Positions 943-8,941 of a stretch of DNA of 64,000 bases are shown here, one piece after another. A program made the translations under genes and the position numbers. The DNA is from Phycisphaerae bacterium (GTDB lineage: Bacteria; Planctomycetota; Phycisphaerae; UBA1845; PWPN01), in contig JAGNEZ010000001.1 of the NCBI GenBank assembly GCA_018003015.1, positions 140,808 to 204,807 of the forward strand, in the 5' to 3' direction. The notes beneath the pieces were generated by a model. The model ran no database searches. It worked only from the letters and a program-made list of their open reading frames with translations, and was not told the DNA's origin. How positions within the stretch are numbered: position 1 is the stretch's first letter; each line of letters starts with the position of its first letter.

Positions 943-2028
943 TCAGGCCGGGACGCCCGCCGACTGGTTGTCCACGAACACGTTGATCTCCCGCGGAGTG
1001 ACGAAGACCGTCTGGCTGACCGCCAAGCCGAGTTCCCGGTAGCGGTCGTGGGGAAGCTCGACATGAACGCTCTGGCCGGTGTCGGAGAGGAGTTCGATCT
1101 TGACCTGCGGGGCGGCGGCGTTGATATGCAGGATAGTGGCTCGGAAGCCGGGCTTGCCTCCGGCCTCCAGGGCGAGGTCGAAATGATAGGGCCGAACCAG
1201 ACCTCGTGCCGGCAGAACAACGTCGGTCGGGCTGTCGGAGTACTCCACCTCCAGCGGCCCGAAAATGGCCTTGTCGCCCTCGATCCGACCGTGAAAGATG
1301 TTGACGTGACCGAGAAACTCAATGACGAACTCGCTGCACGGGCGGTGAAAGACCTCTTCCGGTGTACCGGTCTGTTCGATGCGGCCCTCGTTCATGATCA
1401 CCACGCGATCGGCAACCTCGAGGGCCTCCTCCTGGTCGTGAGTGACGAACACACTGGTCACATGCAACTCGTCGTGCAGGCGGCGCAGCCAGCGGCGGAG
1501 TTCCTCCCGGATCCGGGCGTCCAGAGCCCCGAACGGCTCGTCCAGCAGCAGGAGCTTGGGCTCGATGGCCAGGGCCCGGGCCAGGGCGACTCGCTGGCGC
1601 TGGCCGCCGGACAACTGCCCGGGGTATCGGTCGGCCAACCAATCGAGCTGCACCAGCCTGAGCAGCCGCATCACCCGCTGGCGAATCTCAGTCTTGCTCG
1701 GCCGCTGCCGGGCAGGTCGAACCCGCAGCCCAAAGGCCACGTTCTCGAAGACCGTCATGTGCCGGAAGAGGGCATAGTGCTGGAACACGAAGCCGACCTG
1801 CCGCGAACCCGCGTGACTGACGGTCACATCCTCGCCGTTGAGCAGGATCAGCCCCTCGCCGGGATCGGGAACTTCGAGACCGGCGATGATTCTCAGCAGC
1901 GTGGTCTTGCCCGAGCCGGACGGCCCGAGCAAGGCGACCAGTTCGCCGGTCCTGACTTCCAGGCTGACATGCTTGAGCGCCCCGAAGTCACCGAAGTGCT
2001 TGGTCACGTTGCGAACTTCAATACTCAT
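943..2028 (-). CDS. cysA: Sulfate/thiosulfate ABC transporter ATP-binding protein CysA
   Basis: 361 residues, the usual size for CysA. The nucleotide-binding domain has Walker A (GPSGSGKTT), signature ([15 protein letters not shown]), Walker B ([12 protein letters not shown]) and switch histidine (VTHDQEEAL) in order, followed by a C-terminal TOBE-type regulatory domain from about residue 240. It energises sulfate import at the cytoplasmic membrane together with CysT and CysW. Its ATG overlaps the end of cysW by 11 bases, so the two are probably translationally coupled. It is the last gene of the sbp-cysT-cysW-cysA operon. The gene set (Sbp-type binding protein, two different permeases, CysA) supports sulfate or thiosulfate over molybdate. 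Confidence 0.93.
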
Positions 2029-2935
2029 GGCTCGGCCCTCGCTCGGCTGATTCCTGGGCCAGCTGCTGCTTGAACCGCCACTCCGCGAGGCTCTTGAGCG
2101 CCAGGGTCACCAGAGCCAGACAGGCCAGGAGTGACGCCACGGCGAAGGCCCCGACAAAGTTGTACTCGTTGTAGAGGATCTCTACGTGCAGAGGCATGGT
2201 GTTGGTGACGCCCCGAACGTGCCCGGAGACGACCGAGACCGCCCCGAACTCGCCCATCGCCCGGGCGTTGCACAGAATGACGCCGTACAGCAGCCCCCAC
2301 TTGATGTTCGGCAGGGTCACCCGGAAGAAGGTCTGCCACCCGCTGGCCCCCAGCGAGACCGCCGCCTCTTCCTCCTCCGTGCCCTGAGCCTGCATCAACG
2401 GGATCAGCTCGCGGGCGACGAAGGGAAAGGTCACGAACACCGTGGCCAGGATGATCCCGGGCACGGCGAAGATGATCTCCACGTTGTGCCGGGCCAGCCA
2501 GGGGCCAAAGTAACCCTGCATGCCGAAGAGAATCACGTAGATCACCCCGGACACCACCGGCGAAACCGCAAACGGGAGATCAATCAGCGTAATCAGCACG
2601 CTTTTGCCGACGAACTCGAACTTGGCGATGGCCCAGCTGGCGGCCACCCCGAAGACCAGATTCAGGGGCACGGCAATGGCCGCGGTCAGCAGGGTCAGCC
2701 GGATGGCGGCCAGGGCATCCGCGTGGGCCAGGGCACCGAAATATGCGTGGACACCCTTGGCCAGAGCCTGGCTGAAAACCGCGGCCAGGGGGACGAGCAG
2801 GAAAAGCCCGACGAAACCCATGGCAATACTGGTGAGCAGCACCCGGACCCAGAGCGGCTCCGTCGTCGCCCGGTCAGGGAGCTGAGTCGGTCTCATCGCG
2901 TTGGCGAGTTGTCCGATCTGCACGCTTCGCTCCAC
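2018..2935 (-). CDS. cysW: Sulfate ABC transporter permease CysW
   Basis: About 305 residues with six predicted membrane spans and the binding-protein-dependent permease signature ([16 protein letters not shown], the EAA loop that docks on CysA). Partner of CysT in the heterodimeric sulfate channel. The open frame starts at a GTG at 2935; an alternative ATG at 2896 would remove 13 residues and neither has a strong ribosome binding site. It begins 19 bases after cysT and overlaps cysA at its end, as expected for one transcript. Confidence 0.9.
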
Positions 2936-2954
2936 CCGCGTCCGAGGACGCCGC

Positions 2955-3884
2955 CTAGTGCCCCTGCCCGGAATGCCGCCGAACGCTCCATCGCTGCAGG
3001 CCGTTAATTACTAAAAGGAGGCTAAAAGAAGCAAAGAGGATCAGTACCGCGATGGCCGTCGCCCCGGCGTAGTCAAACTGCTCGAGCTTCATGACGATCA
3101 GCAGGGGCACGATTTCGGTCTTCATCGGCATGTTGCCGGAAATGAAGATGATCGACCCGTACTCGCCCAGGGCCCGGGCCAGGGCGAGGGTGTAGCCGGT
3201 CAGCAGGGCCGGCCAGAGTTCGGGGAGGATCACCCGCCAGAGGGTCTGCCAGCGGCGAGCCCCCAGGCTGGCGGCCGCCTCCTCAAGCTCCGGTTCGAGG
3301 TCTTCCAACAACGGCTCGATGGTTCGCACCACGAACGGCAAGCTCACGAAGGTCATCGCCACGATGACGCCGAGCGGGGCGAAGGCGACCTTGATACCGA
3401 CCGCTTCCAGGAAATGCCCCAGGACACCGTTGCGGGAGTACACCGCGGTCAAGGCGATGCCGGCCACCGCCGTCGGCAGGGCAAACGGCAGATCGATCAG
3501 CGCGTCCACCAGCCGCCGGCCGGGGAAACGATAACGCACCAGCACCCAGGCCACGATCAAGCCGAAAACCAGGTTGACCGTGGCCGAGATCGCCGCGGCT
3601 CCGAAGCTCAGGCGAAACGCGGCCAGCACGCGGGAATCGGTGACCGTTTCCCAGAAGGAGCTCCAACCCGCGGTCGAGGTCTTCAGGAACAGCCCGGCCA
3701 ACGGAATGAGCACGATGAGGCTGAGGTAGGCGATGGTGAATCCCAGGGTCAGGCCGAAACCCGGCAGCACGCTTCGCTGCTTGAGCGTCGGCCAGGAGGA
3801 GCAGGAGGCGATGCCAGGTCCGTCGGGCCAGGGCGCTCCTCCCGTCATGCCAACGGTCCCGACAGCTCCGCCTTCACCGTTCAC
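2955..3884 (-). CDS. cysT: Sulfate ABC transporter permease CysT (CysU)
   Basis: Six-span permease with EAA loop ([19 protein letters not shown]). Residues ~35-60 start the first span ([20 protein letters not shown]). The frame extends upstream into sbp, but the start is set at a GTG at 3884, ten bases after the sbp stop and preceded by TGAGG. An ATG at 3848 is a possible alternative. From either start the protein is about 20-30 residues longer at the N-terminus than typical CysT; this extension is rich in P, G and S and may be partly untranslated. Second gene of the sulfate uptake operon. Confidence 0.87.
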
Positions 3885-3894
3885 GTTTCGGGCC

Positions 3895-4950
3895 TCACTT
3901 GGACGGCTGATAGATCTGGTCGAAGATGCCCTTGTCCGCGAAGTGGATTCTCTGTGCCTCCGCCCACCCGCCGAAATCACCGTCGATGGTCAGCAGGGTG
4001 AGGCTGGGGAATCGACTGGCGTACTTCTCGGCCACGGCCTTGTCCCGCGGGCGGTAGTAGTGCTTCGCGGCGATCTCCTGGCCCTCAGTCGAATACAGGT
4101 ACTCGAGATAAGCCTTGGCCACTTCCGCCGTGCCATGGCGCTCGATGTTCTTGTCCACGAAGGCCACCGGCGGCTCGGCCAGGATGCTGATCGACGGGGT
4201 CACCAACTCGACCTTGTCCTTGCCCAGTTCATCGATGGCCAGGAAGGCTTCATTCTCCCAGGTGATGAGCACATCGCCGATCTCCCGTTGCACGAAAGTG
4301 GTGGTCGAACCGCGGGCCCCGGAGTCGAGCACCGGCACGTTCTTGAAGATCCGAGAGACGAGTTCGCGGGCCCTGGCCTCGTTACCACCCGGCTGCCGGA
4401 GTGCGTAGCCCCAGGCGGCCAGGTAGTTCCACCGGGCCCCGCCCGAGGTCTTGGGGTTGGGGGTGATGACCGAGATCCCCTCCTTCGCGAGGTCATCCCA
4501 GTCCTTGATGCCCCTGGGGTTGCCCTTGCGTACCAGGAAAACGACCGTGGAGGTGTAAGGGCAGCTATTGTCCGGGAGTCGTTTCTGCCAACCGGCGGGC
4601 AGGAGCCTCGCCCGAGCGGCGATCTCATCGATGTCGTAGGCCAGAGCCAGCGTGACCACGTCGGCCTGCTGGCCATCGATGACCGCCCGAGCCTGCTTAC
4701 CCGACCCCCCGTGCGACTGGCGCAGGGCGACCGTCTGGCCGGTCTTGGCCTTCCACATGCGGGTGAAGGCCCCGTTGAACTCCTGGTAGAGCTCTCGGGT
4801 GGGGTCATAGGACACGTTCAGGAGGACCGCTTCCCCGGCAGCCGGTCCGGGTTGACTGGCGGCCGGCTCGGCGTTGTCGTCGCAACCGGCGAGGGTGCCT
4901 GCCACCACGGCCCAGAAGGCCAAAGCAATGTACCCTCTTCCGATCGACAT
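3895..4950 (-). CDS. sbp: Sulfate-binding lipoprotein Sbp/CysP
   Basis: 351 residues. The N-terminus is a lipoprotein signal (hydrophobic stretch then LAGC, lipidated Cys at ~22), so the protein is tethered on the outer face of the cytoplasmic membrane or in the periplasm. The mature part carries Sbp-family hallmarks: [30 protein letters not shown] and [13 protein letters not shown] near the start, then [18 protein letters not shown] in the middle. It captures sulfate (or thiosulfate) and delivers it to CysTWA. The ATG at 4950 follows AAGGAG by seven bases. First gene of the operon; the upstream region has a sigma-54-type promoter signature on this strand. Confidence 0.92.
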
Positions 4951-5033
4951 TCATCGACTCCTTAGGCCACAGGGCGGGCATCAGGACCAGGGTCTCGCCG
5001 CGCCGGGGCGTACTCGTCTGGTCGTCGGGCATA

Positions 5034-5055
5034 TGGCACTGCAATTGCCATACCA
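5034..5055. promoter_or_regulatory. Overlapping, nearly palindromic sigma-54 (-24/-12) promoter signatures on both strands
   Basis: Plus strand 5034-5048 reads TGGCAC-TGCAA-TTGC, an exact match to the sigma-54 consensus TGGCAC-N5-TTGC, pointing to the activator gene at 5199. Minus strand 5055-5041 reads TGGTAT-GGCAA-TTGC with the invariant GG and GC at the right spacing, pointing to sbp (start 4950). Both share the central GCAATTGC. The adjacent gene encodes a sigma-54-dependent activator, which strengthens the call. Function is inferred, not shown. Confidence 0.6.
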
Positions 5056-5157
5056 CGACGGCAGATGGCGATGTTATCGCAACCTAGGGGCAAACGCAAG
5101 AGGCAGAGTCGAGAGACGCCCTTGACAACTCCAGCTTATTTGATAGGTTGTGATGAT

Positions 5158-5180
5158 ATATGATAGATAATCAATCATAT
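5158..5180. promoter_or_regulatory. AT-rich inverted repeat, candidate activator binding site
   Basis: Perfect 7-bp arms ATATGAT (5158-5164) and ATCATAT (5174-5180) with a 9-base spacer, in an unusually AT-rich island of this GC-rich window. It lies about 125-150 bases upstream of the predicted minus-strand sigma-54 start (~5030), a typical enhancer distance, and 19 bases before the activator's ATG. A TATAAT (5178-5183) overlaps its right arm, so it could equally be an operator on a sigma-70 promoter of the activator gene. Confidence 0.45.
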
Positions 5181-5198
5181 AATATGGGATGATCTGCG

Positions 5199-6770
5199 AT
5201 GCGTAAGTTCATGCCGTTGTTGCTCGACATCTGGCGGGAAGCGTGTCGGCACATTGAGATTAGCGAGTCGGTCGATCGTATTACGCCGATACTTGCTCAG
5301 CGGGTGCCGGTGAATCGGGTGGTCGTCCGGCGGCTCGATTTGCAGCGATGCTGTGTGGAGACGGTGGCCGTCGGACAGGCCGTGTCGGACGCCGCTGCGG
5401 AGTCAACGCGGAGTGAGGGTACCAGCGAGCGGTTCGAGGGGGTTGTGAACTGGTGTCGGCGGGGCGAGGTGCTGCGTGGCCCGGTGGATGAGGTGGAGGG
5501 TCTTCTGCCGGGGCTGCTGCCGGCCGGACTGGAGGGCGAGGTTCTGGCCGGTGGGTTGCGGATTGACGCCGAGCCGGTTGGAGTTCTGATTCTGGTGGGT
5601 GGAACGGTAGGCATTTTCCGCGGCGAGCATGAGAGCATCATGCGGGCGCTGCTTGAGCCGTTTGCCATGTCGTTGGAGAACGACCACCAGCTTCGAGAGT
5701 TGACCCGTCTCCGGGAAGCCGCGGAAGCCGATCGCCGATCGCTTTTGTCCCGGCTGGGTCGCCAGGACATCAGTGACTCGGTGGTGGGCGCGGAGACCGG
5801 ACTTCGCGGCGTTTTGGAGCGGGTTGAGCTGGTCGCCCATTCGGACGTGCCGGTGCTGATCCTGGGCGAGACCGGTTCCGGCAAGGAGGTGGTTGCTCGG
5901 GCGATCCACAATCGGTCGCGGCGGACGGGTGGTCCGTTTCTGCGTGTAAACTGTGGAGCGTTGCCGCCGGAGCTGATCGACTCGGAGCTGTTCGGCCACG
6001 AGCGCGGCAGCTTCACGGGGGCGGTGGCCATGCGTAAGGGTTGGTTTGAGCGGGCCGACGGCGGGACGTTGTTCCTGGATGAGATGGGTGAACTGCCCGC
6101 CGCCGCGCAAGTTCGGCTGCTGCGTATTCTTCAGGACGGTTCTTACGAGCGGGTTGGCGGCCAGCGTCAGCTCCATGTTGATGTGCGGGTCGTGGCGGCC
6201 ACGAATCGTGACCTGCACCAGATGGTGGCCGACGGCCTGTTCCGTGAGGATCTCTGGTACCGGATTGCGGTATTTCCGATCCGCATTCCCCCGCTTCGCG
6301 AGCGGATCGAGGATATTCCCGCCCTGGCGGCCCATTTCGCGCTGCGGGCCGCCCAGCGGCTAGGGACGCCCTCGCTGGTACCCGCGCCCGAGGACAACAA
6401 TCTGCTGGTGGCGTATCCGTGGCCGGGGAATGTGCGTGAACTGGCCGCGGTGATCGAGCGAGCGGCGATCCTGGGGAACGGGCATCGGCTGGAAGTGGCC
6501 AAGGCGTTGGGCGTGGGGATGTCCCTGCCCTCGCCGCGGGCGGCCGTCGCCGGGGAGTCGGCCACACGATGGTCACATCGAGGGGAACTGGCCACGCTGG
6601 ACGCGGCCATGAAGACTCACATCGAGCAGGCCTTGCTTCGCACGCGGGGACGGATCGAAGGGCCGCATGGCGCCGCCCGTCTGCTAGACATCAATCCGCA
6701 CACGCTCCGGGCGCGCATGCGCAAACTCCAGGTCGACTGGAGCCACTTCAGGCCACTGGAAGCATCATAA
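5199..6770 (+). CDS. Sigma-54-dependent transcriptional activator (GAF-AAA+-Fis)
   Basis: 523 residues in the order of NorR/FhlA-type activators. Residues ~15-165 look like a GAF sensor domain. The AAA+ domain follows with Walker A GETGSGKE at 223-230, GSFTGA at 270-275 (the sigma-54 contact loop, with Ser instead of the usual Ala) and Walker B LFLDEMGE at 291-298. The C-terminal ~45 residues are a Fis-type helix-turn-helix (GAARLLDINPHTLRARMRKL). It should remodel sigma-54 RNA polymerase in response to a small-molecule signal. It is transcribed divergently from the sulfate transporter operon, whose promoter region has a -24/-12 signature, so it is the obvious candidate regulator (inference). 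The ATG has only a weak ribosome binding site. It ends ten bases from the convergent nth gene. Confidence 0.88.
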   Translation: MRKFMPLLLDIWREACRHIEISESVDRITPILAQRVPVNRVVVRRLDLQRCCVETVAVGQAVSDAAAESTRSEGTSERFEGVVNWCRRGEVLRGPVDEVEGLLPGLLPAGLEGEVLAGGLRIDAEPVGVLILVGGTVGIFRGEHESIMRALLEPFAMSLENDHQLRELTRLREAAEADRRSLLSRLGRQDISDSVVGAETGLRGVLERVELVAHSDVPVLILGETGSGKEVVARAIHNRSRRTGGPFLRVNCGALPPELIDSELFGHERGSFTGAVAMRKGWFERADGGTLFLDEMGELPAAAQVRLLRILQDGSYERVGGQRQLHVDVRVVAATNRDLHQMVADGLFREDLWYRIAVFPIRIPPLRERIEDIPALAAHFALRAAQRLGTPSLVPAPEDNNLLVAYPWPGNVRELAAVIERAAILGNGHRLEVAKALGVGMSLPSPRAAVAGESATRWSHRGELATLDAAMKTHIEQALLRTRGRIEGPHGAARLLDINPHTLRARMRKLQVDWSHFRPLEAS

Positions 6771-8081: not shown

Positions 8082-8122
8082 TTCTTGAGGACTGAGCTGT
8101 CTTGAAAGGTACAGGCGAGACT

Positions 8123-8941
8123 ATGGTACACACGAAAGCCCCAGCCAAGAGTGCGTCGGGTCGTCATCCGGGGTCGAACGAACCCGAGGCTCGACCTCTG
8201 TGGTATGCCGCGAACGCGATGATTCGCACCAAGGCCGCTTGCGAAGACACGATCCGGTTGGCGGATCGAATTTGTTCGACGGAGTTGGGTCCGGTCCCGG
8301 ACGAGCAGGAGTTGTTCATTGCCCTCCACACTGCGGCCTATCAAGCCTCTCGACCGGTGAACCAGCGTCGTTCGGCCAGGTTGGAGCGCGAGGCCTGGAC
8401 TGAGCGATGGGAGGCCATCCGGGAGTTCATCGTTGAGCAGAACCTGGGGCTGGTTTATTCGATGATTGGGCGATTCGGTTCCCGGCACATGGACGAGGAC
8501 GATCTTCAGAGCGAGGCCATGTTTGCCCTATCGAGGGCGGTGGACCGCTTCAATCCGTGGCGGGGGTACAAGTTCAGCACCTACGCGTGCAACGTCATTG
8601 CCCGGGCGCTGATGCGTCGGGGGAAGCAGGAGACTCACTACCGGCGGCTGTTCCCCGTTCAGCACGATCTGAGTTTCGAGCGGCCGGAAGGCATGCCCGA
8701 CCTTGACGCGGGGTTGTACGTCGAGCGGTTGCAGCGCGTTCTGGACAGGAATTTGGGTGAGCTGACCGACCTGGAAACGCAGATTCTCTCGCATCGTTTC
8801 CCGCCGGAAGAGGAGTCGCGACTGACGTTTCAAGAGATCGGGGAAGTGATCGGTTTGAGCAAGGAGCGTGTCCGGCAGATTCAGAACATCGCCCTGATCA
8901 AGCTGCGGGGCGTACTGGATCTAGATCCGGTGCTGCAATAA
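8123..8941 (+). CDS. Sigma-70 family RNA polymerase sigma factor
   Basis: About 272 residues from the ATG at 8123 (a TTG at 8102 would add seven). Region 2 is clear: LVYSMIGRFGSRHMDEDDLQSEAMFALSRAVDRFNPWRGYKFSTYACNVIARAL spans the core-binding and -10 recognition helices. Region 4 closes the protein (TFQEIGEVIGLSKERVRQIQNIALIKLR). There is an N-terminal segment of about 100 residues with no 1.1-type acidic region. The protein is longer than ECF sigmas and shorter than RpoD, so it is probably an alternative group 3-like sigma factor. No anti-sigma gene is adjacent. Its promoter carries tandem operator-like repeats and a strong terminator follows the gene, so it is a stand-alone unit. Confidence 0.88.
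   Translation: MVHTKAPAKSASGRHPGSNEPEARPLWYAANAMIRTKAACEDTIRLADRICSTELGPVPDEQELFIALHTAAYQASRPVNQRRSARLEREAWTERWEAIREFIVEQNLGLVYSMIGRFGSRHMDEDDLQSEAMFALSRAVDRFNPWRGYKFSTYACNVIARALMRRGKQETHYRRLFPVQHDLSFERPEGMPDLDAGLYVERLQRVLDRNLGELTDLETQILSHRFPPEEESRLTFQEIGEVIGLSKERVRQIQNIALIKLRGVLDLDPVLQ

Follow-up and report, generated by a model that had tools for sequence, protein, structure and literature searches.

With high probability, the element at positions 5034-5055 of the window, the 64-kb stretch of DNA analysed here, is a sigma-54 promoter through which the neighbouring activator, acting at three nearby sites, switches on sulfate uptake genes. More specifically, we give a probability of roughly 0.85 to the reading in which a sigma-54 promoter on the minus strand (5055-5040) serves sbp-cysTWA and is opened on sulfur shortage by a NorR-like, divergently encoded activator acting from three dyads. 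The promoter, the sites, their spacing, the gene content and the conservation are all read from sequence. The features of the locus are as follows.

943-2028, minus strand: cysA, ATPase (TIGR00968, 387.5 bits, cut-off 342.75)
2018-2935, minus strand: cysW, permease (TIGR02140, 403 bits, cut-off 329)
2955-3980, minus strand: cysT, permease, given as the longest open reading frame (TIGR02139, 414 bits, cut-off 246)
3895-4950, minus strand: sbp, sulfate-binding protein (NCBIfam NF008022, 515 bits, cut-off 288)
5032-5052, no strand: exact 21-bp dyad TATGGCA-N7-TGCCATA in the sequence, holding most of both promoter readings
5034-5049, plus strand: sigma-54-like element facing the activator gene, TGGCACTGCAATTGCC (exact TGGCAC-N5-TTGC; matrix rank 2)
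5040-5055, minus strand: predicted sigma-54 promoter facing sbp, TGGTATGGCAATTGCA (matrix rank 1 in 64 kb; transporter-facing in relatives)
5122-5127, plus strand: TTGACA, possible -35 box of a sigma-70-type promoter for the activator, just before site 1 (from the sequence; kept in the congener L036)
5131-5146, no strand: predicted binding site 1, CCAGCTTATTTGATAG (site matrix rank 1 in 64 kb)
5151-5166, no strand: predicted binding site 2, TGATGATATATGATAG (site matrix rank 5 in 64 kb; 20 bp from site 1)
5172-5187, no strand: predicted binding site 3, CAATCATATAATATGG (site matrix rank 2 in 64 kb; 21 bp from site 2)
5199-6770, plus strand: activator of 523 amino acids, arranged as GAF, sigma-54 AAA+ and Fis-type HTH (Pfam, NCBIfam, and the GAF fold of residues 1-190)

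The genes sbp-cysT-cysW-cysA (943-4950, minus strand) diverge from the activator gene across an intergenic gap of 248 bp that contains the element. Sbp, CysT, CysW and CysA all exceed the cut-offs of their families and comprise a SulT sulfate ABC transporter; CysA exceeds its subfamily model but falls below the E. coli-type equivalog model (417 versus 502). Since the TIGR02139 match begins only at residue 71 of CysT, the true start of this gene is probably more internal. The Pfam and NCBIfam assignments, with the transporter genes on the minus strand and the activator on the plus strand, agree with the earlier note, which had placed the element between sulfate uptake genes and a likely activator with a sigma-54 AAA+ domain. 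Past an endonuclease III gene, the window also encodes a sigma-70-family sigma factor (8102-8941) in which Pfam recognises regions 2 and 4 only.

The activator had been said to possess a full sigma-54 AAA+ domain, and the match to Pfam Sigma54_activat (PF00158; 229 bits, cut-off 20.2, E 2.9e-68) confirms this. The GAFTGA loop that contacts sigma-54 is present as GSFTGA at residues 270-275, an A to S variant found in 11 of 11 aligned orthologs. Pfam further assigns a lid and a Fis-type DNA-binding domain (PF02954, 23.0 bits, cut-off 22). The same search returned no GAF match in the activator and nothing in residues 1-190. A structure model of these residues, made with 48 sequences, has a pLDDT of 92.3; its best PDB match is a GAF domain (3ci6_B, E 1.4e-6), and 3k2n, a domain of a Chlorobium sigma-54 regulator, is another of its GAF matches. 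Judged by this modelled fold, the N-terminus (residues 1-190) is a GAF domain. The best NCBIfam relative of the whole protein is NorR (NF003451), with 342.6 bits under an equivalog cut-off of 476. Two cysteines of the GAF domain (window 5199-5768) are conserved among the aligned sequences, C86 in 37 of 48 and C16 in 44 of 48, the latter figure being overstated because the search pattern that recruited part of the loci included C16. Both could serve as sensors of redox or sulfur species.

Direct reading of the element bears out the two overlapping motifs attributed to it. The plus strand has an exact TGGCAC-N5-TTGC at 5034-5048 (TGGCACTGCAATTGC) and the minus strand has TGGTAT-N5-TTGC at 5055-5041 (TGGTATGGCAATTGC); GCAATTGC (5041-5048) is common to both readings, and GG-N10-GC is kept in each. 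For the sbp-facing promoter, the -24 GG falls at 5054-5053 and the -12 GC at 5042-5041, and the -24 box is TGGTAT rather than TGGCAC. Sigma-54 itself is encoded in the genome (rpoN; PF04552, 180.5 bits, cut-off 22.8).

How far such motifs stand out from the background depends on the scan. When the 64-kb window is searched for TGGCACNNNNNTTGC with up to two mismatches, 65 matches are obtained versus 63.1 expected by chance. The match at 5034 is the sole one with zero mismatches, and the minus-strand match, which has two, is not above chance when taken alone. This chance-level count is the argument for regarding the element as a fortuitous resemblance and for giving sbp an ordinary sigma-70 promoter, an explanation that is extremely improbable in view of the element's position, its orientation, its spacing to the predicted sites and its recurrence in relatives. 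A promoter matrix trained on 40 away-facing promoters of relatives, with the window genus excluded, was also applied to all positions of the 64 kb: 5040 on the minus strand ranks first (17.3 bits) and 5034 on the plus strand second (16.4 bits). A third register, at 5035 on the minus strand, ranks 237 by the same matrix and was rejected.

The symmetry of the element has a simple source in part. TGGCAC-N5-TTGCCA is almost its own reverse complement, and therefore some of the two-way character comes free with the sigma-54 consensus, which gives TGGCA-N7-TGCCA on both strands here and likewise in three relatives (L037, L100 and L104). An exact inverted repeat such as TATGGCA-N7-TGCCATA could also be the operator of a dimeric repressor or activator, with the sigma-54 likeness being secondary, but several observations make this very improbable. 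The dyad exists as a single exact copy in the window and at a single place in the 6.86-Mb genome. With up to three mismatches allowed, the whole genome has 83 places per strand versus 107 for a control pattern, and for want of an excess of near copies the dyad is not a repeated operator. Its 7-bp arms are missing from the other relatives' upstream regions examined, in which the promoter position is nonetheless kept. Moreover, the symmetry is mostly a consequence of the promoter consensus, and a separate, conserved array of dyads is a far better operator candidate.

Relatives of the activator provide the context in which a sigma-54 promoter for sbp may be judged. Orthologs were identified by identity in 61 related genomes, and a profile built from just the N-terminal domain finds the family in 8 of 13 genomes of the window's family, 20 of 114 of its order and 18 of 392 sampled from the phylum. 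A scan of named genome contigs yielded 80 loci, the best 80 of 144 relatives, which by the titles of their records belong mostly to Planctomycetota and also to Chromatiaceae isolates (Thiocystis, Thiococcus), Hydrogenedentota, Desulfobacterales and others. The genes divergent from the activator are sbp-cysTWA, a TauE/SafE gene or one for a permease of SLC13 type (by Pfam, CitMHS together with TrkA_C and Na_sulph_symp); genes for cysK, cysC or cysteine dioxygenase also occur nearby. Among the best 80 of 144, an SBP, TauE, SLC13 or CysT gene lies divergently within 700 bp of the activator in 48 loci. A sulfur-panel gene is present within the locus DNA in 57 of these 80 and absent from it in 23; it is present in none of the 15 loci that served as controls and carry other AAA+ activators, the controls being about 4 kb long and the family loci up to 12.6 kb. 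As far as gene neighbourhoods can tell, an association of the activator with sulfur uptake that recurs in relatives is supported.

Individual loci depart from this layout in various ways. A gene for porin O/P separates the activator from sbp in L146 (3711-5231) and in L159 (4475-5902), and its product is perhaps an outer-membrane sulfate channel of the same operon. A Desulfobacterales metagenome-assembled genome (L113, 4726-5760) has the activator divergent from a PBP_like_2 binding protein that is not of the sulfate type, possibly a change of activator target. The related activator of L048 (8041-10079), with a frame that is missing the beginning of the GAF domain, adjoins a cysteine dioxygenase gene. 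Two further loci, L090 and L089, have clear binding sites and an activator-facing sigma-54 match; in neither were sulfate genes recognised, and L090 has a gene for a D-serine-dehydratase-like enzyme in the divergent position.

The direction in which the promoter faces was compared across two sets of loci, with a promoter called where at least 10 of the 12 consensus bases are matched. The first set was classified by hand and comprises 22 loci with sulfur genes, L048 having been dropped for having no usable region and L101 being counted although its divergent gene is an oxidoreductase with no proven sulfur role. A transporter-facing promoter is found in 15 of the 22 and an activator-facing one in 2, where 0.21 are expected per strand in Markov sequence; these 2 are the window and L036, the one congener that has been sequenced, and thus a single genus. 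The second set comes from a separate search, in which 11 of the best 80 of 144 relatives were set aside as training duplicates and 1 for short upstream DNA; in the 68 that are left, exact duplicates alone were removed and some close relatives are still counted. Within this selection from the best 80 of 144, 40 loci have a gene for a sulfate or sulfur transporter divergent from the activator; of these, 30 have an away-facing promoter, 10 have none at threshold, and 5 have an activator-facing one (0.6 expected). The 28 loci with no recognised divergent sulfur gene, drawn from the same best 80, have 12 away-facing and 4 activator-facing promoters (0.4 expected). Conservation of the sbp-side promoter in relatives had been suggested as a check on its reality, and these counts constitute that check. 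Taken with the matrix ranks, they leave the sigma-54 promoter for sbp well supported; the plus-strand reading is nearly as good by sequence and is not so by conservation.

The earlier note had gone further in proposing that one element could drive both the activator gene and the sbp operon. Its sbp half is upheld by the results above; dual drive is not supported as stated, the plus-strand match being limited to the window genus (2 of 22 loci) and opposing pairs being a minority. In a true two-way promoter, one orientation of the polymerase would transcribe sbp and the other the activator gene, and since the readings overlap by 10 of 16 bases, the two could be occupied only one at a time. We consider this unlikely, even though no other position in the 64 kb fits the promoter matrix as well as these two readings do and opposing promoters do recur elsewhere. 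A transporter-side promoter of at least 9/12 is present in 67 of 98 nonredundant loci; in 8 of the 67, an activator-facing promoter of at least 9/12 lies 16-60 bp beyond the away-facing one (0.67 expected), and in 2 it lies on the opposite side (0.85 expected). At a threshold of at least 10/12, opposing pairs number 4 versus 0.14 expected. Within 15 bp, there are 8 opposing promoters versus 1.8, of which 3 represent a trivial offset of 1. Against these figures stand the confinement of the plus-strand reading to one genus, the imbalance of 5 to 30 among the 40 loci from the best 80 of 144, and the fact that the 8 opposing cases amount, judged by eye, to about 5 lineages. Sequence identity between the window and L036 is uninformative in this respect and was discarded as support, as the element is spanned by an identical run of 27 bp (P 0.52).

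Some of the opposing pairs have a plain explanation. In L131, L143 and L147 (Planctomycetota, Pirellula sp. and Planctomycetaceae), sbp-cysT follows the activator in the same direction, and the activator-facing promoter therefore simply faces sbp; the activator-facing and away-facing sigma-54 matches start 17 bp apart in these loci. In two other opposing-pair cases, L151 and L172, sbp is divergent, and an alkaline phosphatase gene follows the activator in L151. To judge from these loci, a minority of relatives probably do have sigma-54 promoters that oppose one another, and the plus-strand element of the window is possibly a second promoter or a by-product of symmetry. One speculative extension, which we rate as doubtful, is that the overlapping readings of the window genus, with abutting -12 boxes (5040-5044 and 5045-5049), form a mutually exclusive switch of which the looser face-to-face pairs elsewhere are earlier or parallel versions. 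If this were true, one polymerase slot would fire either toward sulfate uptake or toward more activator, giving positive feedback.

Returning to a promoter that serves sbp, a pointer to its control lies beside the activator gene, at predicted sites that the earlier reading of the element had overlooked. The intergenic gaps of relatives carry a repeated 16-bp dyad, CCGTKATATWTMACGG, in tandem arrays of two or three copies 20-24 bp apart next to the activator gene, and 42 sites matching at least 12 of 16 positions are present in the relatives' upstream regions versus 1.9 expected. A site matrix was trained on these 42 sites, picked by similarity to a hand-typed consensus with the window genus excluded. 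The three window sites it identifies are degenerate, at 11.0, 8.7 and 9.8 bits versus a training-site median of 18.2. For the second set, taken from the best 80 of 144 relatives, at least two sites occur in 31 of the 40 loci with a divergent sulfur gene (0.1 expected) and in 20 of the 28 without (0.05 expected), and at least three in 22 and 8, respectively. The spacing from site to site is 19-24 bp in 68 of 85 cases. From the centre of the array to the -12 GC, the median distance is 116 bp (28 loci), compared with 117 bp in the window. Tandem sites some 100-200 bp from the promoter, a criterion for an enhancer-binding protein, are thus what the DNA contains, and 5131-5187 likely comprises the binding sites of the activator.

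A search of 20 whole genomes for the site pattern, with at most one mismatch, gave 7 distinct places; they are spread over 5 genomes, and each lies just upstream of the activator gene. A reversed control pattern gave 2. To judge from these genomes at this stringency, the action of the regulator seems confined to the adjacent gene. A wider regulon in the window's own genome was considered and rejected, the family site at two mismatches giving 3 matches and the control 2; none of the 3 lies at the window's activator because its own sites are degenerate.

The activator's own promoter is less apparent. The promoter scan of the window region called no sigma-70 promoter for this gene, which weakens the case for TTGACA as a -35 box. 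In a looser scan, the best sigma-70 score reaches at least 9/12 in 39 of 98 loci versus 17 expected, a weak excess because the binding sites are themselves TATA-rich.

From these elements, a mechanism may be proposed in which binding, looping and the signal are what we infer. RNA polymerase with sigma-54 would wait at 5055-5040, and the NorR-like activator would occupy the array at 5131-5187, whose three 16-bp dyads repeat roughly every two helical turns and lie some 117 bp from the -12 box. A signal of sulfur shortage, presumably read by the GAF domain, would free the AAA+ ring, and the activator would then loop to the waiting polymerase and open the promoter. Because the binding sites overlap the place where the activator's own promoter should lie, the activator probably limits its own synthesis as well. 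The plus-strand match would follow for the most part from the quasi-palindromic nature of the -24/-12 sequence.

Earlier literature was searched for a regulator of this type. Open-access literature on sigma-54 with sulfate uptake or transport gave no such regulator; the one close match, a Paenibacillus paper on nitrogen fixation, links no sulfate permease to sigma-54 in its available portions (PMC4774088). Desulfovibrio vulgaris is described as having six one-component activator genes divergent from sigma-54 promoters, and the accessible main text of that study is free of the terms 'sulfate transport', 'sulfate uptake' and 'sulfate permease' (PMC4641369). Similarly, 'sulfate' and 'sbp' are absent from the main text, as far as available, of a survey of sigma-54 regulons published in 2025 and extending to Planctomycetota (PMC12316311). 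In the available portion of a study from 2011 that compares sigma-54 and its activators, 'sulphate' appears in a single entry, for QseF, and, by the words searched, there is nothing on planctomycetes (PMC3162934).

The kind of mechanism is known, and the family of sulfate regulators appears to be undescribed. It is predicted to be a family for sulfate and sulfur uptake whose activator, binding site and promoter are each defined by sequence, and to span Planctomycetota and scattered other phyla, among them purple sulfur bacteria available in culture (Thiocystis, Thiococcus). Sulfate uptake would thereby come under sigma-54 control, and the set of promoter and sites is precise enough to be testable. 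The same target genes, those of sulfate permeases, are controlled elsewhere by CysB and CymR, which are LysR- and Rrf2-type regulators acting at sigma-70 promoters. The nearest counterpart in architecture is NorR with norVW of Escherichia coli, where a GAF-AAA+-Fis activator is likewise divergent from a sigma-54-dependent target. The two differ in target, NO detoxification for NorR and sulfate uptake here, and in binding site, GT-N7-AC for NorR and GT-N8-AC, inside the 16-bp dyad, for this family. NorR assembles on three intergenic enhancer sites upstream of norVW, all of which are needed, according to the available part of PMC2941729. In physiology, a comparison by description can be made with SfnR of Pseudomonas, which functions in dimethyl sulfone use under sulfate starvation and is also a sigma-54-dependent activator of sulfur-scavenging genes. 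To our knowledge, SfnR has no N-terminal sensor. By the titles of papers cited in PMC8234197, SfnR is a sigma-54 activator for sulfone use that is itself under CysB. The targets of SfnR are enzymes for sulfones and sulfonates, whereas the target here is the uptake of sulfate.
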